Shown here in pieces: positions 6,005 to 32,871 of a DNA stretch of 64,000 bases (position 1 is its first letter; each line of letters opens with the position of its first letter). The notes under the pieces were generated by a model. It was not told the origin of the DNA. It saw only the letters and a list, made by a program, of their open reading frames with translations, and did no database searches. Position numbers and translations under genes: made by a program. Source of the DNA: Lentzea aerocolonigenes (GTDB lineage Bacteria > Actinomycetota > Actinomycetes > Mycobacteriales > Pseudonocardiaceae); NCBI RefSeq assembly GCF_000955955.1, contig NZ_JYJG01000004.1, positions 1 to 64,000 of the forward strand, read 5' to 3'.

Positions 6005-6675
6005 GGGTCGGTGTCATCACCTTCCCCGGCACGCTCGACGACGTCGACGCCCAGCGCGCCGTCAGGTACGCCGATGGGGAGGCTGTGCCGCTCTGGCACG
6101 GCGACCACGACCTCAAGGGTGTCGACGCCGTCATCGTCCCCGGCGGGTTCTCGTACGGCGACTACCTGCGCTGCGGTGCCATCGCCCGGTTCGCGCCGGT
6201 CATGCAGGAAGTGATCGAGGCCGCGCACAAGGGGATGCCGGTTCTGGGCATCTGCAACGGCTTCCAGATCCTCGCCGAGGCCCACCTGCTGCCGGGCGCG
6301 TTGGTGCGCAACCACAAGCTGCACTTCGTGTGCCGCGACCAGTGGCTCGCCGTCGAGAACAACACCACGCCGTGGACCACCAGGTACGACAAAGGTGCCG
6401 AGATCCTCGTGCCGCTGAAGTCCGGCGAGGGCGGCTACCAAGCCGACCAGAAGACACTCGACGAACTCGAAGGTGAGAACCGAGTCGTCTTCCGGTACGT
6501 CGGCGAGAACCCGAACGGCAGCCGCAACAACATCGCGGGCATCACCAACGCCAGGGGCAACGTCGTCGGCCTCATGCCGCACCCCGAGCACGCCATCGAC
6601 GCGCTCACCGGCCCGACCGACGACGGTCTGGGGATGTTCCTGTCGCTTCTCGACGCAGTGCAGGTGAAGGCATGA
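6001..6675 (+). CDS. purQ: FGAM synthase glutaminase subunit PurQ
   Basis: 224 aa class I glutamine amidotransferase that releases ammonia from glutamine for PurL. The nucleophile Cys is in GICNGFQIL, the catalytic His/Glu in LMPHPEHA, and the oxyanion region is [17 protein letters not shown]. Full length. ATGA overlaps couple it to purS upstream and purL downstream, so the three subunits are probably made in fixed ratio. Confidence 0.97.
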
Positions 6676-21845: not shown

Positions 21846-22220
21846 GTGTATCTCGCGGATGGTGGTGGGGGTGGCGTGTCCACGCCCACGGAGTTCGGTC
21901 AGCGCAAGCTGAAGGTGGACCCGTCTGCCATTCCAGAGGCCAGAAAGGCCTTCGAACACGCGCTCGACGAGTTCGACGCCAAGATCAGGCGTGCGGTGGA
22001 CCACCTGCCCACGAAGCCGTGGGCAGAAGACCCGATCAGCAGCGAGACGTCGAAGGCGTTCAACGAGCAGACGTCCGACAAGGCGCTCGCGGCGCTGAAG
22101 TTCTACCGCGAGCAGCTCGTCGGCGTGATCAGCCAGCTCAAGATGATCGAGGAGCAGTACCGCAAGGTCGAGGGCGACAACACGGCCATGTGGGGCAAGC
22201 ACCAGCGAGACCTGGGCTGA
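21846..22220 (+). CDS. Small helical WXG100/PE-like type VII secretion protein
   Basis: 124 aa, GTG start with GAGGAGGG 7 bases upstream. After a Gly-rich start (ADGGGGGVSTP) the protein is two predicted long helices (AIPEARKAFEHALDEFDAKI and ALAALKFYREQLVGVISQ) joined by a loop with Trp (KPWAEDP), the size and layout of PE or WXG100 partners. It directly precedes a PPE-like gene (15 bases) and an EspG gene, the arrangement in which the small protein pairs with the PPE protein for export by an ESX system. Not a canonical WXG motif; identified mainly by context. Confidence 0.65.
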   Translation: MYLADGGGGGVSTPTEFGQRKLKVDPSAIPEARKAFEHALDEFDAKIRRAVDHLPTKPWAEDPISSETSKAFNEQTSDKALAALKFYREQLVGVISQLKMIEEQYRKVEGDNTAMWGKHQRDLG

Positions 22221-22235
22221 GAGGGGGACTGACCG

Positions 22236-23462
22236 ATGACTGACCACCGCTTTCAGGGGTACGCACACCCCGAGCTGTACAAGATGATCAACTCTGGTCC
22301 TGGCGTCTCCGCCTCCATCCCGGTGGAGCAGGGCTGGAAGACGATCAAGGAGACGCTCGCCCAGATCGACGGCGACCTGCACACCGCGCTGAGCAAGATG
22401 GGTGCGGGCTGGGAGTCCGACGCCGCCGACGCCGCGGGTGCCGCGCTGTCGCCGCTGGCGCAGTGGGCCGGGTACGCCGAGCAGGGCTCCGGCACGATGG
22501 AGAGCTCCGCGCGCCTGCAGGGCGAGTTCATCGCCGACGCGCGCAAGAAGATGCCCGAGGTCGTCCCGGTCACCACCGAGAAGCCCGGCCTCCTCGACAT
22601 CGCGGTCGGCGGCCTGACCGGTCCGGTCGGCATGGCGCACGTCGTGGGCCAGCAGTTGGACCACGAGAAGCAGGAAGCCGCCGCGGACAACGCCGCAGCC
22701 CAGGCCGTCAAGGTCATGGAGGACTACCAGTCGGACAGCCGCTGGAACTCCTCGACGCTCGGTGAGTTCCCGGAGCCGCCTCAGGTCGTGATCGACACGC
22801 CGCCTCCTGCCGGGTCCGGCACGGAGAACACGCGCGTCGGCTACTCGTCCACCGGCACGCCCACGGTGTCCGGCCACAACACCGGCACGACGAGCCCGTC
22901 CTGGGCCACGCCGCCGTCGACGCAGCAGCACGTCCAGACCTGGACGCCGCCGCCCACCGACACGACGCACACGTCGTGGGTGCAGCCGCCGACGCCGACG
23001 CCGACGCCGCCGGTGCACACGCCGCTGCCCACGAACCTCCCGACGCCCGAACCGCGCCCGACCCCGGTCGGCCCGGTGTTCACCCGGCCCACCACGAGCG
23101 GCACCACCGGTGTCCGCGGTGGCGGTGCCGGCGGCGTTCGTGGTGGTCAGCTCGGGTCCGGCAAGGCGTTCGGCCCGATGTCCGGCTCGCTCGGCGCGTC
23201 CGGTCAGCAGGGCTCGATGAAGCCCGGTGCCATGGGCATGGGTTCCGGTCCCGAAGGCATGCGCGGTGGGGCCATGGGTTCCGGCGGGGCTGCCGGCAAG
23301 GGCGGTGCCGCGGGTTCGGGCGCTGGTGGCGCGCACGGCCAGAAGGGCGAGGGCGAGGACGACATCGAGCACAAGGCGGCCGACTACCTGGTCGAGACCG
23401 ACGACGTGTTCGGTGACGAGCGCATGGTCGCGCCTCCGGTCATCGGAGGCTTCTCGGAGTGA
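22236..23462 (+). CDS. PPE-like type VII secretion substrate with Pro- and Gly-rich tail
   Basis: 408 aa. Residues 1-170 are helical and PPE-like (HPELYKMINSGPG, IPVEQGWKTIKETLAQID, GAGWESDAADAAGAAL), including a W-x-x motif at the helical turn. Residues about 180-285 are Pro/Thr-rich; the remainder is Gly/Met/Ala-rich (GGAMGSGGAAGKGGAAG) and ends in an acidic segment. This is the layout of Pseudonocardiaceae PPE-type ESX substrates. The downstream espG overlaps by 4 bases (GTGA), so chaperone and substrate are coupled. Confidence 0.78.
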   Translation: MTDHRFQGYAHPELYKMINSGPGVSASIPVEQGWKTIKETLAQIDGDLHTALSKMGAGWESDAADAAGAALSPLAQWAGYAEQGSGTMESSARLQGEFIADARKKMPEVVPVTTEKPGLLDIAVGGLTGPVGMAHVVGQQLDHEKQEAAADNAAAQAVKVMEDYQSDSRWNSSTLGEFPEPPQVVIDTPPPAGSGTENTRVGYSSTGTPTVSGHNTGTTSPSWATPPSTQQHVQTWTPPPTDTTHTSWVQPPTPTPTPPVHTPLPTNLPTPEPRPTPVGPVFTRPTTSGTTGVRGGGAGGVRGGQLGSGKAFGPMSGSLGASGQQGSMKPGAMGMGSGPEGMRGGAMGSGGAAGKGGAAGSGAGGAHGQKGEGEDDIEHKAADYLVETDDVFGDERMVAPPVIGGFSE

Positions 23463-24277
23463 GCCTGTTCGGCGCACCGGCGGAGAGGGAGCCGATCACT
23501 CTCTCCGCCGAGGAGTTCGACGTGGTGTGGGAACGGATGAACGTCGGCCCGATGCCGCTCGTGCTCAAAGTTCCCACTCCCGGTAAGACGCGAGACGAGC
23601 GGATCACCCTCGAAAACCGCGTCTACCAGCAGTTGGACTACCGGCGCCTGGGCAACTCGCGCGGTCTTTCGTCCGAACTGGACGGACTGCTGCGCATGTT
23701 CGTGAAGCCCGAGCGGGAGGCGGACGGCCGCCTCTGGCTCGGCCACAGCCTGCGTGTCCTGGCCGTCGCGAACGGCGACTGGGGCGCGCTGGCGACGTTG
23801 CGGGACGACCAGCTGACGTTCCAGCCGTGGGCGGGCTCCGGCCTTGCCTCCGCGGTGCTGTCCGTGCTGCCCGCGCACCCGGCCGGAACCGGTCTTTCGG
23901 TGACGCTGCCCAGCGCGGACATCGAGAAGGCGATCTCCCAGACCGACGGCTCGCCGAAGTCGATGGAGGCCGCCTTCCGGGGCGTCGGCCTGCGTGAGGC
24001 GGACGCGAAGGCGTTGGTGCAGATGTTCACCGGCATCGTGCACACCGGGAACTTCGGGGCAGCGGCACGGGACAAGTACGGGAAGCGGTGCAGGCCCGAG
24101 CGCGTGATCGCGTTCTTCGACACCGAAGAGGGCCGCTACCTGCAGCAACGTCGTTCGTCGAACGGTCAGCCACCCTGGAGCACGTTCACGCCGACCGATG
24201 CTCGGCGGATGATGCACCAGGTGGACGAGCTGATCTCCGAAGCGGTTCGTTCCGCAGGCGGCTCGAGTCTGGTTTGA
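23459..24277 (+). CDS. EspG-family ESX secretion-associated chaperone
   Basis: 272 aa, GTG start overlapping the PPE-like stop. The N-terminal segment PITLSAEEFDVVWERMN and the YQQLDYRRLGN ... ELDGLLRMF region match the EspG fold; in mycobacteria EspG binds the tip of PE-PPE dimers and keeps them soluble for the ESX machine. Cytoplasmic. Its presence beside the PPE-like gene is the strongest evidence that this is a type VII export module, although no eccB, eccD, eccE or mycP lies in the window. Confidence 0.85.
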   Translation: MSLFGAPAEREPITLSAEEFDVVWERMNVGPMPLVLKVPTPGKTRDERITLENRVYQQLDYRRLGNSRGLSSELDGLLRMFVKPEREADGRLWLGHSLRVLAVANGDWGALATLRDDQLTFQPWAGSGLASAVLSVLPAHPAGTGLSVTLPSADIEKAISQTDGSPKSMEAAFRGVGLREADAKALVQMFTGIVHTGNFGAAARDKYGKRCRPERVIAFFDTEEGRYLQQRRSSNGQPPWSTFTPTDARRMMHQVDELISEAVRSAGGSSLV

Positions 24278-24321: not shown

Positions 24322-25965
24322 ATGAGCATCGACAGACGGCAATTCCTGCTGGCTACAGGGGCTGCCTTGGTCGGGACGTCAGCGTTGACGGGGACTGCTT
24401 CGGCAGCGTCCTCGGCAACGCTCTGGCAAGAGTTCGTGGCGAACCCCTACAACCACCCGCAGATCCCGAACATCGCGTACGCCGGCTACCGGATGGGCGA
24501 AAAGCCTGCTCACCGGCCCGTGCTCGCGAACGTGCTGTTCTTCGGGGCTCGCCGGGACGGTTCCGCGGACGCCGCGCCCGCGATCAACAAGGCCATCGAG
24601 TTCGTCGGCCGCTTCGGTGGCGGCACCGTCTACGTGCCGCCGGGCCGCTACCGGATCGACGACATCATCCGCGTCGGCTACGACAACGTGGTGCTGCGCG
24701 GCGCCGGCAGCTCGAAGACCACCTTCTACGCGACCCGGTCGCTGGAGGAGATCGTCGGCATCAACCGCAGCCGCTACGGCTCGGAGAACTCGGCGTGGAG
24801 CTGGTCGGGCGGACTGGTGTGGGTGTGCCACCGCGACCGGTACCAGCCGTTGGTCGACGCGATCAAAGCGCACAAGTGGCCGTTCGAGGGCTGGACGGGC
24901 AACGAGCTGGAGCTCGGTTCGACCCTGACCGGCGTCACGGGGTCCGCTGCGCGTGGTGCGTTCGTCGTGACCGTCGAGAATGGACACAAGCTGCGTGCCG
25001 GTCAGCGCGTGCTGCTGCGGGTGGACGACGACGGCTACTCGCTGCCGAAGCACATGTGCGGCGACGTCGAGGGCACGAAGACCTACAAGTGGGACGACAA
25101 GGACAAGCTCCTGTCGTACTTCCCGTTCCTGTGGCCGGTGAAGATCGAGTGGGTGCGCGGCAACAGGGTCAAGCTCGCGCAGCCGTTGCCGGTGGAGATC
25201 CGCCCGGAGTGGAAGGCGCGCCTGACGACGATGGCGCCGGTGATCACGGGTGCCGGCGTCGAGGGCATCAAGATCGAGATGTTCAAGGTGCCGACGCCGA
25301 AGCACCTGCAGGACAAGGGGTACAACGGTCTCGCGTTCCAGTGCGCGTGGGACTGCTGGGCCGACGACGTGCACGTGCAGGACGTCGACAACGGGTTCCT
25401 CCTGGTGTCCTCCAAGGGAATCTCCCTGCTGAACACTCGGGTTTCCGGCCGTGGTCACCACCACGCGTACGCGACGCGCGAGCAGTCGCACGACAACCTG
25501 ACGGATGGCTTCGTGATCGAGGCGCCGTCCGAGCCGTCGCAGGCGGGCGCGGGCAACCACGGGCTGAACGTCGAAGGCCTGTCGTGCGGCAACGTCTGGA
25601 CGCGCGGCAAGATGGACTACGACGTCTTCGACACCCACCGCGGTCTGCCGTTCGGCAACGTCCGCACCGAGATCACCATCAACAACGTCGGTGCACACGG
25701 TGGCAGCGCCAACGCGGGCCCGTTGTACGGAGCCAGGTTCGCGCACTGGAACGTCACCGTCACGAACCAGCGTGCCGGCAACGTGCGAATCGACCAGGTC
25801 GCGCCGTGCAGTGCGACCGTGGCGATCTCCGAGGTCCGCGACTTCGGTCAGATCGACAAGCCGGACTTCGCCGGTGCGTTGAACTCGCGGCTGGAGCTCT
25901 ACGGCACGAACGAGGTGACTCCGAAGAACCTCTATGACGCGCAAAGGAAGTTGCGCCGGAACTAG
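24322..25965 (+). CDS. Tat-exported pectate-lyase-superfamily (right-handed beta-helix) protein
   Basis: 547 aa. The N-terminus MSIDRRQFLLATGAALVGTS is a twin-arginine signal ending near ASAAS. Residues 65-140 contain the pectate-lyase-3 motif NVLFFGARRDGSADAAPAIN and GGTVYVPPGRYRI, the first coil of a beta-helix typical of polysaccharide lyases, epimerases and phage tailspikes; later coils follow (NGFLLVSSKGISLL). The catalytic residues and substrate are not clear. GGAGA lies 7 bases before the ATG. It ends in a 4-base CTAG overlap with the convergent EccC-like gene and sits inside the secretion island without an evident link to it. Confidence 0.8.
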   Translation: MSIDRRQFLLATGAALVGTSALTGTASAASSATLWQEFVANPYNHPQIPNIAYAGYRMGEKPAHRPVLANVLFFGARRDGSADAAPAINKAIEFVGRFGGGTVYVPPGRYRIDDIIRVGYDNVVLRGAGSSKTTFYATRSLEEIVGINRSRYGSENSAWSWSGGLVWVCHRDRYQPLVDAIKAHKWPFEGWTGNELELGSTLTGVTGSAARGAFVVTVENGHKLRAGQRVLLRVDDDGYSLPKHMCGDVEGTKTYKWDDKDKLLSYFPFLWPVKIEWVRGNRVKLAQPLPVEIRPEWKARLTTMAPVITGAGVEGIKIEMFKVPTPKHLQDKGYNGLAFQCAWDCWADDVHVQDVDNGFLLVSSKGISLLNTRVSGRGHHHAYATREQSHDNLTDGFVIEAPSEPSQAGAGNHGLNVEGLSCGNVWTRGKMDYDVFDTHRGLPFGNVRTEITINNVGAHGGSANAGPLYGARFAHWNVTVTNQRAGNVRIDQVAPCSATVAISEVRDFGQIDKPDFAGALNSRLELYGTNEVTPKNLYDAQRKLRRN

Positions 25966-27671
25966 CCGCGCATAGCGATCGGCAGCGAGCGCGTCACGTC
26001 GGCGAGATCGGTGGGGAGCACGAAGCTCTCCACCGATCTGCTGATCCGTCGCGTCCAGCCTCGTTCGGTGAGTTCGAGCCGGTACGACAGCGAGACGCCT
26101 GGCAGATCGCTGGGTGTCGAGTCGGCGAGCAGCAGGTGCTGGCCGTAGTTGCGTCCTGCCTCGCTGAGCGCCTGCAGGACCTTGAGGAGTTCCGGGTCGG
26201 CCTCGACCAGGTCGCGCACGCCGTTCACGCAGACGAGCAGTTCCGGCAGCGGGTGCTTCAGTTCTTTCTGGGCGAGCAGTGCCGCGCGGTAGTCCCAGGT
26301 GGTCCGGAAGCCGTTGTCCGCCAACGTCCTGGCGCGTCGGTCGAGGTCGTCCAGCAGATCTCCGTGCCATACGTGCGGTGCTTCGTCGAGGCCGGTGGGG
26401 CCACCGATGAACGTGACTCGCAGGTCGTCCGGTGAGTGGCGCAGCAGCTGGCCGAGAATCAGCGCGTTGAGGGCTTCCGCGCGTCGTTCGGGTGGTGCGA
26501 CGACCTCGCCGTGCGGGCCCATCCCGTCCTGGAGGTGGGTGGACTTGAGGTCCACCTCCACCGGCTGGCCGTGCTCGTCCGCACCCACCGGAGCCCGGTA
26601 CTGCAGGGCGACGGGACGGGGCCGCCACGCGTGTTTCGGCAGGTCGTGGAGCGTGAAGAAGTCCGGCGCCGGTTCGGTCCGGTGCATGAGCAGCGGCAAC
26701 GAGACCGCGAGCTCTTCGAGGTTCGCGGGTGCGGTGCAGTCGTCGATCTGCAGGTCCGTTGTCGCGTGTGGACTGTCGAGCAGCAGCTGGATTCCCGACT
26801 TGCCGACGTCCTTGGCGACGATCACGAGGTCCGCGGCGAACGACGGATCCGCTTTGACGATGTCCTCGAACCCGTTGACGCAGACCAGAAGCTGAGGCAG
26901 CACCTGGTCGAAGCCGCGGTGGTGGAAGATCGTCCAGGTGTTGCCGACGACTTCGAGCCTGCGCTGCGACTCGGCCAGCAGCATGTCCGCGAGCTGCGCG
27001 GGATTCCTCGTCGCGTTGCGGTGATGGCTCTGCACGTGCGGCGCCTGGTCGAGTCCGGCGAAGGCATCCGTGTCGTGCGCGTCGATGAGGATCGTCTGGA
27101 ACAGCCTGGGCGAGTGCGTGGTCATCAGCCCCAGCACCAGACTCCGGAACGCGCCCGGCGAGGTGATGCTGAGATGCGATCCCGTGCGCCACTTGCCGTC
27201 GACGAACCGGGTGAGCTCGACGACGACCGGTTCGCCGGCGCCGTCGACCCCGATCGGGACCTTCCACCACCGGCCCTTCCACGCGAGCGTCCTGCTGAAC
27301 TCGTGGATGCCGTGCAGTGCGAGGAAGTCCAGCACTTCGACCTGCAGGCGAACGTTGTCGGGAAGATCGCCGAGCACACGGGCGGTGATGACCACGTTGA
27401 CCTCGTGCGCCGTCGTGGTGATCCACCGGACGGCGTCGGCGAGCCCGGGATCGCTTTCCGCGCACAGCTTCCAGTCGTCGATCAACAGCGTCGCGCCGGG
27501 TTCACCACCGCGCTCGAACCAGGTCAACAGGTTCTGGCGGCGGCGTTCGTCGGCGGGGTCGAAGCTGACGGCGGCCTGCGACTCGCCGCGCCCGATCCGG
27601 TAGACCCCTTGTCCCGCAGGGGTTCGCAGGCCGGTGAGGCGTGGCGGCCCGACCAGGGCGAGAGGCGTCAC
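25962..27671 (-). CDS. Degenerate EccC-like FtsK/SpoIIIE protein B (no Walker A)
   Basis: 569 aa from GTG 27671, overlapping the stop of the upstream paralogue by 4 bases (GTGA). At least three repeated modules can be seen: an N-terminal one with a Walker-B-like ATLLIDDWKLC but LVGPPRLTGLRT in place of a P-loop; a middle one with VPIGVDGAGEPVVVEL ... LLVCVNGFEDIVKADP; and a third with YRAPVGADEHGQPVEVDL ... LLVCVNGVRDLVEADP. The repeated GVDGxGEPVxVxL and ELLVCVNG segments correspond to ATPase modules of EccC, but none keeps GxxGxGKS. Probably a non-hydrolysing scaffold or regulator tied to type VII secretion. Frame extension beyond 27671 only reads antisense of the neighbour's frame. Confidence 0.72.
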   Translation of the reverse strand: MTPLALVGPPRLTGLRTPAGQGVYRIGRGESQAAVSFDPADERRRQNLLTWFERGGEPGATLLIDDWKLCAESDPGLADAVRWITTTAHEVNVVITARVLGDLPDNVRLQVEVLDFLALHGIHEFSRTLAWKGRWWKVPIGVDGAGEPVVVELTRFVDGKWRTGSHLSITSPGAFRSLVLGLMTTHSPRLFQTILIDAHDTDAFAGLDQAPHVQSHHRNATRNPAQLADMLLAESQRRLEVVGNTWTIFHHRGFDQVLPQLLVCVNGFEDIVKADPSFAADLVIVAKDVGKSGIQLLLDSPHATTDLQIDDCTAPANLEELAVSLPLLMHRTEPAPDFFTLHDLPKHAWRPRPVALQYRAPVGADEHGQPVEVDLKSTHLQDGMGPHGEVVAPPERRAEALNALILGQLLRHSPDDLRVTFIGGPTGLDEAPHVWHGDLLDDLDRRARTLADNGFRTTWDYRAALLAQKELKHPLPELLVCVNGVRDLVEADPELLKVLQALSEAGRNYGQHLLLADSTPSDLPGVSLSYRLELTERGWTRRISRSVESFVLPTDLADVTRSLPIAMRG

Positions 27672-29233
27672 GGCACCGCGATCTGCGACTGGACCGGGCC
27701 TGGGAGGGTGAGGGCGAAACCGGGCCGGTCCGGCACCAGGGCGGCCTGACGTGCGTCGAGCAGCGACGTGGCCGGGTCGTCGAGCCGGAACTCGATCGCG
27801 AAGCCCAGGTTCTTCATGATGAAGGCCGGAACCTCGGCCCACGTGCGGGCGGTGACCACGACGTGGCGTTGCGGGTCCAGCGGTTCGCCGGGACCGTCCA
27901 GGAGCTGGTAGTTCGGCAGTTCGTCACCGAGAACCGTCGCCAGCGTGCGCAGGGCCGTGCTCTTGCCCGTGCCCGGTTTGCCGACGATGGCGCCGTAGCG
28001 CGCTTCCGAGGTGAAGATCGGGGTGAAGACGGCACGGCGTTGCTCGAACGGGATGTCCACGATGCCCATGGCGCCGGGAGGAAGCATGTCCAGCTTCAGC
28101 TCGACCGGACTCTGGTGCAGCGGCGGCAGGACGAGCGGGTGGGCGGGTGGACCGGAGTCGGCCAGCGCCTGCGGCAGCGTCTCGGCCCACTCCTCGAGGT
28201 CGTACGGCGGTGTCGCGGACGGCCACTCCGGCAGCCTGGCGCGCAGCTGTTCGGGGAACGCCTCGCCGGAGAAGAGCAGGTAGACGCCCATGACGCGGCC
28301 GGCGCCGGTCAGGGCGTCCAGGGTGTCCTTGAAGCGGGGATTCCGCTCGATCAGCACCTCGGCGCTGTCCACGCAGACGAGCAGGGCCGGGAGCGGGTCG
28401 AGGCGCGGGTTCTCGTCGCGCTTGTCGCGGTAGTCGTTGTAGTTGCGGCACCCGTCGGTCTTGTGCACCAGTTCCTGCCGCCGGTTGAGCTCGCCGTCGA
28501 GACCGATCCGGAACCGCTCGAGGACCTCGTCGGAGTCGTCGCCGGTGAGGCTGAAAGCCATGTGCGGTGCGGGGCTCAGGCCGTCGAAGACACCGGTGTT
28601 CAACATGTCGAAGCAGCCGATGTTGAGGTCTCTCGACGAGTGCGTGGCCATGAGTCCGAGCAGGGCGGCGAGCAGCTTCTGCTCCCGTTGCGCGGCCGTG
28701 CCGAGGTAGGTGCCCGAATACCCGTCCGCACCAACGGCGATGTGCAGGTAGACCGGCCAGCCGCGCTCATCGGAACCGACGGCGGTCCTGAGGTCGCGCC
28801 GCTGCTGCTTGTTGCTCAGATCGGTCTCGATCTCGTGCAGAGCCAGGAAGTCCGCCGCCTCGCCGAGCAGATGGCGCCGCAGCCGTCCCGGCACGTCCGA
28901 CCACTTCCGCGCCGTGACCACGACCTGCACGCCCCGCGCGGGCCCGAACGCCGCTATCCACTCGACGACCTGGTCGAGCTCCGGGTCGTGTTGCACGCAC
29001 AACGCCCAGTCGTCCACCAGCAGCACCGCACCGGACGGCGCCCCGCGTTCGAACCAGTCCAGCAGACTCCGGCACCCCATCTGGTCCGACGGGTCGAAGG
29101 TCGCCGACACCGGCAACGGGTCCGCCCCGCGCCCGATCCGGTAGACGGCCATGTCCGGCGCGGCCGCGAGAGCCGCCGTCAGCCGCTCCCTCGTCGCCTG
29201 GCCGGAACCGACGACCGCGAAGTTCCTGATCAC
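27668..29233 (-). CDS. Degenerate EccC-like FtsK/SpoIIIE ATPase A (one P-loop)
   Basis: 521 aa from GTG 29233. The N-terminal module has a ruined P-loop (AVVGSGQATRERL) but an intact Walker-B-like AVLLVDDWALC and VVVTARKWSDVP. The middle module (WPVYLHIAVGADGYSGTYLG ... LLVCVDSAEVLIERNP) is an EccC D2-like domain without GKS. The C-terminal module has a perfect Walker A (GKPGTGKST from residue 418, bases 27959-27982) but then jumps from NYQLLDG to HVVVTARTWAEVP, missing the Walker B stretch. So P-loop and Walker B lie in different modules. First gene of a two-gene operon with protein B. A TATATC box ends 6 bases before the GTG. Confidence 0.75.
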   Translation of the reverse strand: MIRNFAVVGSGQATRERLTAALAAAPDMAVYRIGRGADPLPVSATFDPSDQMGCRSLLDWFERGAPSGAVLLVDDWALCVQHDPELDQVVEWIAAFGPARGVQVVVTARKWSDVPGRLRRHLLGEAADFLALHEIETDLSNKQQRRDLRTAVGSDERGWPVYLHIAVGADGYSGTYLGTAAQREQKLLAALLGLMATHSSRDLNIGCFDMLNTGVFDGLSPAPHMAFSLTGDDSDEVLERFRIGLDGELNRRQELVHKTDGCRNYNDYRDKRDENPRLDPLPALLVCVDSAEVLIERNPRFKDTLDALTGAGRVMGVYLLFSGEAFPEQLRARLPEWPSATPPYDLEEWAETLPQALADSGPPAHPLVLPPLHQSPVELKLDMLPPGAMGIVDIPFEQRRAVFTPIFTSEARYGAIVGKPGTGKSTALRTLATVLGDELPNYQLLDGPGEPLDPQRHVVVTARTWAEVPAFIMKNLGFAIEFRLDDPATSLLDARQAALVPDRPGFALTLPGPVQSQIAVP

Positions 29234-29291: not shown

Positions 29292-29669
29292 GTGCCAGCC
29301 AAGCCCGTCGACCCCGCCGAGATGCGAGCCGCCGTGCAGGCCGTGCTCCCGTGGCTGCGAGGCGAGGCCGACCAGCCGGCACGCCCGCTGCTGGCCGCCG
29401 CCGTGCGCCTCAGCCTGCGCACCCTCGAGCAGATCGCACCTGGCCGCAGCGTCGAGGTCCGCGTCCCGCCGTTCGCCGCCGTGCAGTGCGTCGAGGGCCC
29501 GCGGCACACCAGAGGCACGCCCCCGAACGTGATCGAGACCGACCCGCGCACCTGGCTGGAACTCGCAGTCGGTTCTCTCGCCTGGGCCGAGGCCGTGGAC
29601 GGCGGTCGGGTCACCGCCTCAGGGACCCGAGCCGACCTCTCCCACCTCTTGCCGGTCGTGCGCTTCTAG
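29292..29669 (+). CDS. Sterol-carrier-family protein (M. tuberculosis Rv0807-like)
   Basis: 125 aa from GTG 29292. A short SCP2-like single-domain protein: helical start (VDPAEMRAAVQAVLPWL), then APGRSVEVRVPPFAAVQCVEG and TWLELAVGSLAWAEAVDGGRV, where TWxxLxxGxxxWxxA is the sterol-carrier-type motif. The orthologue Rv0807 stands directly before purF in mycobacteria; here two converse genes and a DUF1023 operon have come between (purF is 3.7 kb away). Role unknown, probably hydrophobic ligand binding. It ends in a 4-base CTAG overlap with the DUF1023 gene. Confidence 0.75.
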   Translation: MPAKPVDPAEMRAAVQAVLPWLRGEADQPARPLLAAAVRLSLRTLEQIAPGRSVEVRVPPFAAVQCVEGPRHTRGTPPNVIETDPRTWLELAVGSLAWAEAVDGGRVTASGTRADLSHLLPVVRF

Positions 29670-31708
29670 AACCACGACCCGATCGTGTTGTCGTAAACGG
29701 ACTTCGCACCGTCCGAAATGGCGCCGCCGACGTCCTTCACGACCTCGACACCACCCTCGACCACGGCCTTGCCACCCTCGTAGACGTCCCGTCCGAGCTC
29801 ACCGGCGTTGCCCAGTGTGTCAGCGGCCACGTCAACGACATCGCTGCCCAACTCGCCCACCGTGCCGACCGCGTGCCTGCCTGCGTCGCCCCAGTTGCCG
29901 TGCGAGATGTCGTCGACGACCTGGCCGCCACCGCGCCAGACGTCCTCGCCCATGTCGACGACCTCCTTGCCGGTGTTCACGCCCCAGTCGATGACCGGCC
30001 CGACACCGGGAATGTTCGAACCAGGCACCTCGACCGGCGTCGGCGAGTCCTGCCACCGCTGCTCGGTGACGTCACCGCCGTGCCCGGTAGCGATCTTCGC
30101 CAGGTTGCCCAACGACTCGGAACCCTTGTCGTAGTACGACGAGTGCGCTTCCCCGACCCAGGTCTGGCCGGAGGTGCCGAACTGCTTGGCGCCGAACGAA
30201 GCGTCGTACGGACCGGTCGACGACCCGTCCTTGGTGAACCAGTCGCCACTCGTGCCCTGGATGACCGGGTCGTGCTCGGTGCCGCCGACGTACACGTGCC
30301 CGGCACCCGGTCCGAGCTGGTTCACGTTGGACGCACCGACGCCCGGCGACCCGACGAATGCGATGTCGTCCGCCTTGAGCCCGTTGTCCATCGCCGAGTA
30401 CCCGACGACCGTGCTGCCGTAGCTGTGCCCGATCACCGTGACGTGCGCGCCCGGGTTGACCGCGCGGTAGTTCGCGACGTCCTGCGCGAGGAGCTTGCCG
30501 CCCTCGATCGCCTGTGCCGGGTCGTTGACCTGGCCGAGCGCTGCGGCAGGCGCGTCGTACCCGAGCCACTGGATCGCGGCGCCGTCGGGCCCCATCGCGT
30601 TGCTGAGGTTCGCGGCCTGCGACATGCTGAAGCCGCCTTGGAGGTCCGAAGTCGTGCCGGGCACGCAGACAGCCAGGTTCTTGGCGGTGTCCGGGTTGCC
30701 GAACGCCACCGCCATCGTGCCTTCCTTGAGCCCAGGACCGTCCGGGCTGTAGGCGAGGATGTATGGCGTCTTGCCGCTGTCCTTGCCCAGCTTGATGGCC
30801 TTGTCCATCGAGCCCTTCGCGGCCTCGGCGTTGTGGGCGCGACGTGCGGCTTCGTCGTATTGGGACAAGAGCTGCGACCCCTGCGGGTCGTTGCGCAGTG
30901 CTCGCTGGCCATCCGACGAGTTCGGGTCGACGCCCAGCTCACGAGCGCGGTCAGCCAACTGCTGCTGCAGAGCGGTCTTCTGGCTGTTGAACCGGCCGAT
31001 GTCATCGGTGATGCGTGCGCGGTTCGCCTTGTCGAGCACCTCGGCCGGCAAGCCGGGAAGCTGGCCGAGTTCCTGGAACTTGGTGTCCAGCAACGCCTTC
31101 TGCTGATCCGCGCTGAGTGACTTCCACCAAGCCGCGACCGTCTTCGGATCGGTGCCTGGTGGAGGCACCGGAGGAAGTGCCCCTGCACCGCCGGCGCGCT
31201 GTGCGGCACGATCCCAGCCGCAGTCCGTGCGAGCGGATTCCTCGAAGCCGGGCGGGATCTTGGTGAGCGCGCCCGCGTAGGACCGCAGCACGTTGTCGTA
31301 ACCCGACTTCACCTTGTTCAGGGAGTCGTTGACCTGGTTGGCGAGCGTGCGGGTCTGCTCCTCGTCGAGACCCGGAGGACGGCTGCGCCACACGTTGATC
31401 GCCTGGTCCGCAGCGCCGCGCATCTGACCGTAGGCACGGGATGCCGCCTGAACGATGTCCACGCCCGCGCCCAGTCGTTCGGCGGCGGCCTTGGTGGCTC
31501 TCGTGGACAGTTCGGCGCGTGCGGTGAACTTGGTGGAGGCTTGGCCAACCCAGTTGCTCACCGCGGTCTTGCCACCCTTGGCCACCGAGTCACCGGCGCG
31601 GCCGACGGCACTGATCGCACCGGTGATCGGATCCGCGGCGGCAGCGATCCGGCTGACATCGCCAGATGCGAGCTTGCCGTAGAGGCTCTCCGGATCCGTG
31701 TAGCTCAC
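29666..31708 (-). CDS. DUF1023 alpha/beta hydrolase, predicted type VII substrate
   Basis: 680 aa from GTG 31708. The N-terminal 200 residues are helical and WXG-like (YTDPESLYGKLASGD, AINVWRSRPPGLDEEQ). The centre (about 340-560) is an alpha/beta hydrolase: nucleophile Ser429 in GHSYGS, preceded by QWLGYDAP and YRAVNPGAHVTVI, followed by SPGVGASN, the DUF1023 pattern. The C-terminus has repeated amphipathic Gly/Asp/Val segments (GELGSDVVDVAADTLG) like 11-residue helical repeats. No signal peptide, as expected for ESX export. Coupled by a GTGA overlap to a small EspC-like gene, so the two are probably exported together. Likely a lipase or esterase acting outside; substrate unknown. Confidence 0.8.
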   Translation of the reverse strand: MSYTDPESLYGKLASGDVSRIAAAADPITGAISAVGRAGDSVAKGGKTAVSNWVGQASTKFTARAELSTRATKAAAERLGAGVDIVQAASRAYGQMRGAADQAINVWRSRPPGLDEEQTRTLANQVNDSLNKVKSGYDNVLRSYAGALTKIPPGFEESARTDCGWDRAAQRAGGAGALPPVPPPGTDPKTVAAWWKSLSADQQKALLDTKFQELGQLPGLPAEVLDKANRARITDDIGRFNSQKTALQQQLADRARELGVDPNSSDGQRALRNDPQGSQLLSQYDEAARRAHNAEAAKGSMDKAIKLGKDSGKTPYILAYSPDGPGLKEGTMAVAFGNPDTAKNLAVCVPGTTSDLQGGFSMSQAANLSNAMGPDGAAIQWLGYDAPAAALGQVNDPAQAIEGGKLLAQDVANYRAVNPGAHVTVIGHSYGSTVVGYSAMDNGLKADDIAFVGSPGVGASNVNQLGPGAGHVYVGGTEHDPVIQGTSGDWFTKDGSSTGPYDASFGAKQFGTSGQTWVGEAHSSYYDKGSESLGNLAKIATGHGGDVTEQRWQDSPTPVEVPGSNIPGVGPVIDWGVNTGKEVVDMGEDVWRGGGQVVDDISHGNWGDAGRHAVGTVGELGSDVVDVAADTLGNAGELGRDVYEGGKAVVEGGVEVVKDVGGAISDGAKSVYDNTIGSWF

Positions 31709-32028
31709 TTGCCGCCCCCAAGTCCCTGAACGAGCTTCATCAGCGCCGAGGCGTGGTCGTCGTCCGTGCGCTGGTAGGCATCGGCGTTCGAGACCAGGCC
31801 TTCCGCCGCGTCGGTGATCCACGCGGAGCCTCGTTGGAGGTCCTGCGAGTGCGTTCCGACGAACTTGGACAGGGCGTCGGCGAACTCCGCGGCTGCGTCG
31901 ACCTCACCCAGCGCGCCAGCGTCGAGCTTGAGCATCGAGATCATCTCCGCCGCCTCGCGCACCGCGTCGGAGCCGTTGCCGAACTCCTTGGACGCGTTGC
32001 GCAACAGCTCTGGCTCAACGCCGAACAT
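31705..32028 (-). CDS. EspC/WXG100-like small type VII secretion protein
   Basis: 107 aa from ATG 32028 with AGGGGGTG upstream. Nearly all helical (VEPELLRNASKEFGNGSDAV, KLDAGALGEVDAAAEFADAL, DLQRGSAWITDAAEGLV) ending in a Gly-rich tail; size and pattern match the EspC-like (DUF2580-type) group that pairs with larger substrates. The stop overlaps the start of the DUF1023 hydrolase gene (GTGA). Probably the partner that brings the hydrolase to an ESX machine encoded elsewhere. The frame is open 16 codons upstream but without a ribosome binding site. Confidence 0.72.
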   Translation of the reverse strand: MFGVEPELLRNASKEFGNGSDAVREAAEMISMLKLDAGALGEVDAAAEFADALSKFVGTHSQDLQRGSAWITDAAEGLVSNADAYQRTDDDHASALMKLVQGLGGGK

Positions 32029-32115
32029 CGCACACCCCCTGATTGGTCCTCGATCACTGCGACGCACGCACATCATCGCCGGTTCCTCCGTCGCGGGTGG
32101 ACCGTTTCAGGCACG

Positions 32116-32871
32116 ATGACCCCCATGGTGCAGACGGGGTGGACGGCCGAGCGGTGGACCGCTGTGTTCATCGAGCAGGCGGAGATGTTCCGCAAGGCAG
32201 TGGCTGACGCGGATCCGGCGGCCGAGGTGCCGACGCGTCCGGGATGGACCGTGCAGGACCTCGTCGTGCACCTCGCGCGCTTCCTGGAGACGTCCACGGC
32301 CTACCTGCGCACCGGCAGCCGCAACCCGATGAAGCCGCCGGCGCCGAGGGGCGGGCTGTCGCCGCTCGAATACCTCGACCTGCAGCTGGCCGAGGCCGGA
32401 GAGGTTCTCGCGGCCGTACCCGGCAATCGGCCGGTGTGGACGTTCTCACCCGCTGCTCCCGATCTGGCGTGGGTGTGGCACCGCCGAATCGCGCACGAGA
32501 CGGTGTTGCGCCGGTTCGACGCGCAGACGGTCGTCCGCCAGGTGGTCGCCACGGACGCGGACCTCTGCGTCGACGGCATCGACGAGGTGCTGACCACGAT
32601 CGTCGCGGCCAAGCTCGACGGTGATTCGCCCAGTGAGGTGTCCGGCACGGCCGTGGTGCGGCCGACCGACGTACCCGAGTCCTGGCTGATCTCGCTCACC
32701 GCGGGCGAGGTGCCCCAGACCCGTGCCGCCGCACCCGGCGAGGAAGGCGACGCGCAGGTGACCGGGGACGCGGAGCTCGTCTACTTCTGGCTCTGGAACC
32801 GGATGAACCTCAAGGAGATGACCGGCGACCAGCGCGTGCTGGACGTCCTGAAGGTCGGACGGGGGCACTGA
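32116..32871 (+). CDS. Maleylpyruvate isomerase N-terminal (DinB-like) family protein
   Basis: 251 aa from ATG 32116 (ATG 32125 possible). Residues 1-130 are the MDMPI_N/DinB-like four-helix domain: TRPGWTVQDLVVHLARFLE carries a metal-ligand His, and RRIAHETVLRRFDAQ carries the H-E-x-x-x-x-x-D motif typical of the family. The C-terminal part (YFWLWNRMNLKEMTGDQ) matches the accompanying MDMPI_C-like domain. Family members are mycothiol-dependent enzymes or of unknown function. It overlaps the downstream lipoprotein start by one base, so the two are co-translated. Confidence 0.82.
   Translation: MTPMVQTGWTAERWTAVFIEQAEMFRKAVADADPAAEVPTRPGWTVQDLVVHLARFLETSTAYLRTGSRNPMKPPAPRGGLSPLEYLDLQLAEAGEVLAAVPGNRPVWTFSPAAPDLAWVWHRRIAHETVLRRFDAQTVVRQVVATDADLCVDGIDEVLTTIVAAKLDGDSPSEVSGTAVVRPTDVPESWLISLTAGEVPQTRAAAPGEEGDAQVTGDAELVYFWLWNRMNLKEMTGDQRVLDVLKVGRGH

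Follow-up and report, generated by a model that had tools for sequence, protein, structure and literature searches.

Can two adjacent proteins that each hold only part of an ATPase's motifs still form an active enzyme, or do they serve as a regulatory pseudo-ATPase of a type VII secretion system? The question is raised by a pair of minus-strand genes, here called A and B, in a 64,000-nucleotide stretch of Lentzea aerocolonigenes DNA (assembly GCF_000955955.1, contig NZ_JYJG01000004.1, positions 1 to 64,000; the whole stretch is called the window below). The original prediction considered both answers for what it described as two coupled EccC-like proteins. Our comparison suggests that A and B are pseudo-ATPases, predicted to be cytosolic, which derive from domains D1 and D2 of EccC, the actinobacterial ESX motor. 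We tentatively propose that they are a lineage-specific, hydrolysis-dead regulator or adaptor acting on a type VII EccC that is encoded elsewhere in the genome. The two genes and their modules are as follows.

27668..29233, minus strand: gene A, from GTG 29233 to TGA 27668; 521 residues, EccC-derived, three modules, one intact P-loop
28844..29233, minus strand: A N-terminal module (residues 1-130), an EccC D2 tail with a degenerate first strand and helix; LLVDDW at 29006-29023; median dN/dS 0.19
28139..28843, minus strand: A middle module (131-365), EccC D1-like, without the Walker A Lys and the catalytic Glu
27671..28126, minus strand: A C-terminal module (370-521), EccC D2-like with an internal deletion of about 100 residues; P-loop GKPGTGKS at 27959-27982, followed by LLDGPGE; no Walker B
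25962..27671, minus strand: gene B, from GTG 27671 to 25962; 569 residues, EccC-derived, three modules, no P-loop
27318..27671, minus strand: B N-terminal module (1-118), a paralogue of the A N-terminal module; LLIDDW at 27471-27488
26667..27317, minus strand: B first D1-like module (119-335), assigned by profile comparison with EccC D1
25965..26666, minus strand: B second D1-like module (336-569), which stops where some other B proteins continue into a C-terminal GKPGSGRT module

Both frames and their coupling were confirmed. The start of B overlaps the stop of A in a GTGA junction, and the 4-base overlap recurs in all 20 fetched loci that have B; co-translation of the two genes is likely. 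The open frame of A reaches further upstream of this start, into a gene on the plus strand that encodes an SCP_3 domain. If this SCP gene starts at GTG 29280, as we read it, 46 bases lie between the divergent starts of A and SCP.

Modules and motifs

The longest open frames of A and B were scanned with Pfam and NCBIfam hidden Markov models. PF01580 (FtsK_SpoIIIE) matches both proteins above the Pfam cut-off of 24 bits (A 32.3, B 37.3 bits). The NCBIfam EccCa and EccCb profiles match A with E 9e-31 and 1e-37 (107.3 and 129.8 bits) and B with E 1e-35 and 2e-6 (123.3 and 26.6 bits), far below the equivalog cut-offs of 509.15 and 346.55 bits. The best EccCa profile stretch is 411-606 in both A and B. 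The matches to the two families are not due to chance. Among solved sequences and folds Thermomonospora EccC, Geobacillus EssC, M. tuberculosis EccCb1-D2 and FtsK come nearest; profiles and structures both relate the modules to EccC. The AlphaFold model of A has a mean predicted local distance difference test score (pLDDT) of 74.9 and a predicted template modelling score (pTM) of 0.53; the corresponding values for B are 86.6 and 0.83. The hydropathy of both proteins is low, with no hydrophobic membrane-anchor stretch (highest 19-residue value 1.27 in A and 1.09 in B).

The profiles of single modules were compared with the D1, D2 and D3 domains that we cut manually, around the P-loops, from the four EccC chains of the genome. 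The module order is D2 tail, D1-like, truncated D2 in A and D2 tail, D1-like, D1-like in B. The three repeated modules (A 131-365, B 119-335 and B 336-569) match D1 with E 4e-32, 2e-18 and 3e-44 and D2 with E 2e-12, 2e-3 and 5e-16 only. They had been taken for repeated, GKS-free D2-like modules; GKS-free they are, but by profile they are D1-like, with one of them in A and two in B. D3 is the best match of no A or B module in this comparison. Residues 67-122 of the A N-terminal module align to D2 columns 149-204, which form the Walker-B strand and the following helix, with a probability of 94%. In this module the first strand and helix are retained in degenerate form (VVGSGQATRERL; strand 5-8 and helix 11-23 in the model), and it thus looks like a small domain in its own right and not like half of one. 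Residues 1-118 of B are its paralogue (E 1e-37), too diverged for a D2 match of their own (probability 6%).

The P-loop of A is present where it had been predicted; the letters at 27959-27982 give GKPGTGKS, and the final T of the GKPGTGKST read earlier sits at 27956-27958. GxxGxGK[ST] is found in 62 of 63 A orthologue rows, the remaining row ending short of the P-loop. The absence of a Walker B strand from this module was borne out as well. Residues 370-521 align to D2 columns 17-248 over 131 columns only, so that some 100 residues have dropped out after the P-loop helix, which in A is followed by the HVVVTAR strand at a distance of about 20 residues. The LLVDDW of A and the LLIDDW of B were both located. 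DD is kept in 63 of 63 A rows; DDW deviates in 6 of 55 B rows. The significance of LLVDDW as a Walker B motif is weakened by the EccC chains of the same genome, which at this place read VDGW or IDGW in D2 and IDDY, VDDY or VDDF in D3. The DDW of A and B therefore corresponds to an inherited D2/D3 feature. LLVDDW has its counterpart in the D2 VDGW, in which the catalytic Glu is already gone, and so it argues only weakly for a composite ATPase.

B has no P-loop, as had been noted: GxxxxGK[ST] occurs in 0 of 58 B-type proteins, B of the window included. An extra C-terminal module of the A type, reading GKPGSGRT, is carried by 14 of the 58. The Walker A of EccC ATPase3 accepts [K/R][T/S] according to the accessible text of PMC6954902, and because Lys or Arg is accepted there, this module of the long B proteins is not called dead. 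Two diverged B-type proteins, P0148 (982 residues) and P0149 (497 residues), appear by eye to have more and fewer middle modules than B, respectively.

The D1-like modules counted number 171 (63 from A, 54 each from the first and second positions of B). None of the 171 has a Walker A Lys, a catalytic Glu or GxxxxGK[ST]. In the Lys column Arg stands in 47/63 A modules, 3/54 B first modules and 54/54 B second modules, and the Walker B Asp persists in 58/63, 0/54 and 47/54, respectively. All 171 retain the second Arg of RRQE. The first Arg of this motif is kept in 63/63, 53/54 and 26/54, and the Arg of GRS in 55/63, 3/54 and 52/54. These kept arginines may belong to the trans side of an active site, which we take as a hint. 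No orthologue with both motifs intact in one module was seen.

Median ratios of nonsynonymous to synonymous substitution rates (dN/dS) were taken from pairwise comparisons of 22 loci (231 pairs; 210 for B and 221 for SCP). They amount to 0.19, 0.58 and 0.34 for the N-terminal, D1-like and C-terminal modules of A and to 0.38, 0.40 and 0.47 for the successive modules of B; for the neighbours they are 0.16 (EspG), 0.19 (SCP), 0.40 (PPE), 0.36 (WXG) and 0.09 (purF). Constraint within A is stronger at its two ends, where the half motifs lie. The A frame is open in 21/21 named loci with a full A. Judged by these ratios, the A and B genes are maintained and their middles are relaxed. The traits of the pseudo-ATPase class are found in A and B: the ATPase fold is kept, the catalytic residues are lost and dN/dS is below 1.

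The type VII island and its distribution

A and B are surrounded by genes of likely type VII substrates, EspG and a hydrolase. In the window these are:

21846..22220, plus strand: small WXG100/PE-like protein with C-terminal YRKVE (YxxxE); its WXG100 profile match is below the cut-off
22236..23462, plus strand: PPE-like protein (PF00823, barely above the cut-off)
23459..24277, plus strand: EspG-family protein (PF14011, 1.6e-66)
29666..31822, minus strand: alpha/beta hydrolase (Abhydrolase_8), longest frame; the true start is probably internal (VSYTDPESLYG, as in locus L153)
31705..32076, minus strand: EspC-like protein with C-terminal YQRTD (YxxxD), longest frame; the true start is probably internal

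The gene order in the 22 named loci is purM, purF, lipoprotein, MPI, EspC, hydrolase, SCP, A, B, pectate-lyase-like, EspG, PPE and WXG, except that purM falls outside the fetched part of L065, no pectate-lyase-like gene was seen in L060, and L063 and L065 lack B. EspG, PPE, WXG and EspC are present in 22/22 loci with A or the N-terminal module, a co-occurrence with ESX genes that the original prediction had proposed to check. YxxxD/E, a secretion motif according to the accessible part of PMC6954902, stands near the C-terminus in 22/22 WXG and 22/22 EspC sequences.

All four full EccC of the genome are on other contigs. On the 131-kb contig of A and B no eccB, full eccC or eccD was found, the profile matches to these lying on other contigs as well; within this contig the island is thus an orphan. 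The EspG family has 16 matches on 14 contigs of the genome (two of them are one frame) against four full EccC, and some EspG loci may lack a motor of their own, although the contigs are short. In the same genome, a frame at 6547 (minus strand) of L151 (G000:C198) encodes 1043 residues with one P-loop (GPSGSGKT), a VIDEF motif and an EccCa match over 407-607 only; by these features it is another distant EccC or FtsK relative. At G000:C212:8726-10005 the EccD profile matches two adjoining frames, possibly a split or a frameshift.

In the protein search the close relatives of both proteins carry Lentzea names where named, with three label exceptions (Nocardia sp. NRRL S-836, Streptomyces sp. ID05-26A and a Pseudonocardiales bacterium); the remoter matches are EccC-type proteins that align over part of the query. 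Among 150 genomes of the family, A has a full-length match in 7/7 same-genus genomes (in one as two overlapping pieces). The other 143 also match A, among the matches listed only within A 98-330. In a set of 297 genomes the N-terminal module is full-length or nearly so in at least 24 of the same genus. In 96 genomes of other genera it is matched weakly; the matches listed fall inside module positions 32-126, for the most part in frames above 1000 residues, as expected of EccC. No full-length A or B match outside Lentzea is among the matches listed for the two sets. A second N-terminal module stands at the place of B in 21 of the 24 listed same-genus genomes, and 3 have a single one. Lentzea sp. 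NBRC 105346 has the N-terminal module alone (127 residues), between SCP and the pectate-lyase-like gene, and A occurs without B in two genomes, Nocardia sp. NRRL S-836 (Lentzea by synteny) and G277.

In 20 stretches around the SCP gene of other genera, neither A nor B is found at E 1e-4. Five of these genomes, from four genera (L126, L127, L131, L133 and L141), have the EspC-to-WXG island with SCP adjoining EspG and without A and B; the gap between SCP and EspG is 92 bases in L126. SCP adjoins EspG-PPE-WXG in L128 and L129, and the remaining stretches hold parts of the island or none.

The trees leave several histories of the pair. Lentzea sp. NBRC 105346 (L065), with the N-terminal module only, branches first, outside all A-bearing rows (100/99), with only 36% of its columns filled. 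L063 and L153, with A only, form a clade (100/100), and a clade of the A+B loci is not rejected (p 0.36). Both stepwise growth and stepwise loss of modules fit these data; a strict order of gain from N-terminal module to A to A+B was dropped, stepwise loss costing a similar number of events. Long and short B mostly form two clades in the B tree, with the diverged P0147-P0149 outside both. A long-B clade is borderline in the upstream tree (p 0.04) and is not rejected in the downstream tree (p 0.19) or in the tree of purF, purM, SCP and EspG (p 0.11), and a single loss may suffice to explain the short B found in the named loci. Repeated loss of the B C-terminal module had been suggested by the flank tree (long-B clade rejected, p 4e-121) and was dropped, that tree being mosaic.

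Exchange of the A/B cassette between species was also considered. A clade of the window with L045, L051 and L056 is supported by the concatenated flanks but rejected by the trees of A and of B. The DNA trees of the upstream and downstream flanks alone reject it too (p 6e-8 and 1e-4), the hydrolase and MPI being the odd stretch; the concatenate is therefore mosaic, and exchange of A/B was dropped. A partial Mantel test (r 0.585, 0/5000) built on the same concatenate was set aside. The A tree pairs the window with L046 (100/100), and the flank trees disagree with this. As to the odd stretch itself, hydrolase identity to the window is 65-66% in L058, L061 and L062, 87-89% in L045, L051 and L056 and 70-80% in the other 16 loci; the values for MPI are 68-70%, 91-93% and 73-86%. 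Window positions 29666-32871 (hydrolase and MPI) thus comprise divergent types at odds with the neighbour trees, and this part of the island seems to have been exchanged between Lentzea species.

Candidate functions of A and B

The EccC ancestry, the motif loss in 171/171 D1-like modules, the ESX context in 22/22 loci and the dN/dS below 1 agree with the reading of the pair as a regulatory pseudo-ATPase of a type VII system. In the model that we tentatively favour, A and B would be produced together and associate. They would dock on an EccC motor encoded elsewhere via their D1-like modules, whose catalytic residues in cis are gone and whose arginines of the possible trans side are retained. 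The C-terminal P-loop of A would bind nucleotide without hydrolysis and thereby switch the docking, and as an outcome EccC activity would be tuned or selected for the EspC, WXG and PPE substrates of the island. B would be the more worn partner, having lost the P-loop module of the longer B proteins.

Several observations weigh against this model. The D1-like module of A, which would take part in docking, is weakly constrained (0.58), and the first RRQE Arg is kept in only 26/54 of the B second modules. The kept arginines may be structural, and published accounts, as far as their accessible text goes, place the trans arginine finger at differing positions. Arg occupies the Walker A Lys column of many D1-like modules (47/63 in A, 54/54 at the second position of B); as these lack GxxxxGK[ST], loss of nucleotide binding there is likely and not certain. 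The lack of eccB, eccC and eccD nearby holds for the 131-kb contig only, the genome being in 648 contigs. Finally, the island exists without A and B in other genera, so the pair is not an essential part of it.

It is possible, though somewhat unlikely, that A and B are substrate adaptors, which bind the island cargo (EspC, WXG, and PPE with EspG) in an EccC-type groove and hand it to EccC without contact to the ring. Their place between the EspG/PPE/WXG and EspC/hydrolase genes in 22/22 loci and the fast divergence of the D1-like modules agree with this, as does the description, in the accessible text of PMC6954902, of a hypervariable pocket of EccC ATPase3 that binds substrate signal peptides and of pocket regions of ATPase1/2 that bind linkers. 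However, the substrate-binding domain D3 is the one to which no module is closest, and the cargo genes of other genera do without A and B.

The pair might also be a decaying relic, a functionless Lentzea-specific duplicate of EccC fragments that is being lost. We consider this unlikely. The patchy presence of the B C-terminal module (14/58), the two genomes without B, the lone N-terminal module and dN/dS values as high as 0.58 are what decay would leave; yet A remains open in every locus with a full A, the 4-base overlap is kept in 20/20, the medians are below 1 in every module, and the P-loop and DD are invariant in A. The GKPGSGRT of long B proteins, which fits the Walker A accepted in EccC ATPase3, is no proof of death either.

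A function outside type VII secretion, for example that of a nucleotide-sensing defence or regulatory protein with borrowed EccC domains, is quite improbable. The genes are lineage-specific and fast-evolving, and PADLOC gave a weak match (mad8) confined to A 409-437 and the corresponding stretch of P0148. These matches span only the generic P-loop region, on which ground a defence link was rejected, and ESX genes surround the locus in 22/22 cases. Very unlikely, finally, is the composite ATPase, in which the C-terminal P-loop of A and a Walker-B Asp of the A or B N-terminal module would make one active site: the half motifs are invariant in the A rows covering them and lie in the more constrained parts of A (0.19 and 0.34 against 0.58), but this half of the original prediction gained no support, given the N-terminal module alone in Lentzea sp. 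NBRC 105346, A without B in two genomes, the DDW deviations of B and the D2 motif that itself has no Glu. A site made within A itself, the model of which has a pTM of only 0.53, is rejected less firmly.

To return to the regulator acting on EccC, a bolder version of it, which we think rather improbable, is a natural poison or tuning subunit. Soluble dead EccC chains would enter working EccC rings, offering trans arginines without an active site, and the P-loop would make the entry nucleotide-dependent. An orphan substrate island would in this way commandeer one of several ESX machines, with a device assembled in one genus as N-terminal module, A and A+B.

Relation to known motors

EccC, including its split form EccCa-EccCb, is the closest known system to A and B; it has the same D1- and D2-type FtsK/SpoIIIE domains, gives the best profile matches and is among the best structure matches. 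Unlike EccC, A and B have no membrane-anchor stretch, no D3-like module and no intact D1 active site, and their order is D2-D1-D2 or D2-D1-D1. They show no N-terminal transmembrane helices or DUF domain (by hydropathy and the position of the EccCa match), remain far under the equivalog cut-offs and have no eccB or eccD neighbours within the 131-kb contig. The split EccCb of ESX-1 is a D2-D3 protein, whereas no module of A or B is best matched by D3.

Degenerate ATPase domains are known in EccC and EssC: the DUF, D2 and D3 are folds with lost motifs, proposed in the accessible text of PMC11154593 to regulate or multimerise. Those domains sit inside the motor chain, whereas A and B are separate genus-specific proteins made solely of them. 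EssC of Staphylococcus aureus becomes dominant-negative and poisons secretion when its D1 motifs are substituted or D3 is missing, for which the authors, in the part of PMC9436818 available, invoke mixed complexes. There a catalytically altered EccC-type chain would be able to join working complexes, which, as far as that text goes, makes these variants the nearest experimental precedent for A and B as regulators; they are engineered and membrane-bound, whereas A and B are natural and apparently soluble, and their joining is only proposed. In the literature searched, which covers few subscription journals, there is no description of separate proteins of degenerate EccC domains as a genus-limited pair, nor anything on Lentzea with type VII secretion or on EccC as a pseudo-ATPase. 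The new part is thus not the degenerate domains, known within the motor, but their occurrence as such a pair.

An open question is how the degenerate domains of EccC exert control over type VII secretion, and the studies consulted treat them within the motor chain. One environmental genus offers them in graded forms (one module, three modules, the pair, and the pair with an extra module) beside likely substrates, and with separate proteins and defined likely substrates deletion and pull-down tests are straightforward. Even if the pair were decaying, it would be a clear record of motor parts reused and lost. Otherwise, A and B of Lentzea, soil bacteria, are candidate natural regulators of a secretion machine.

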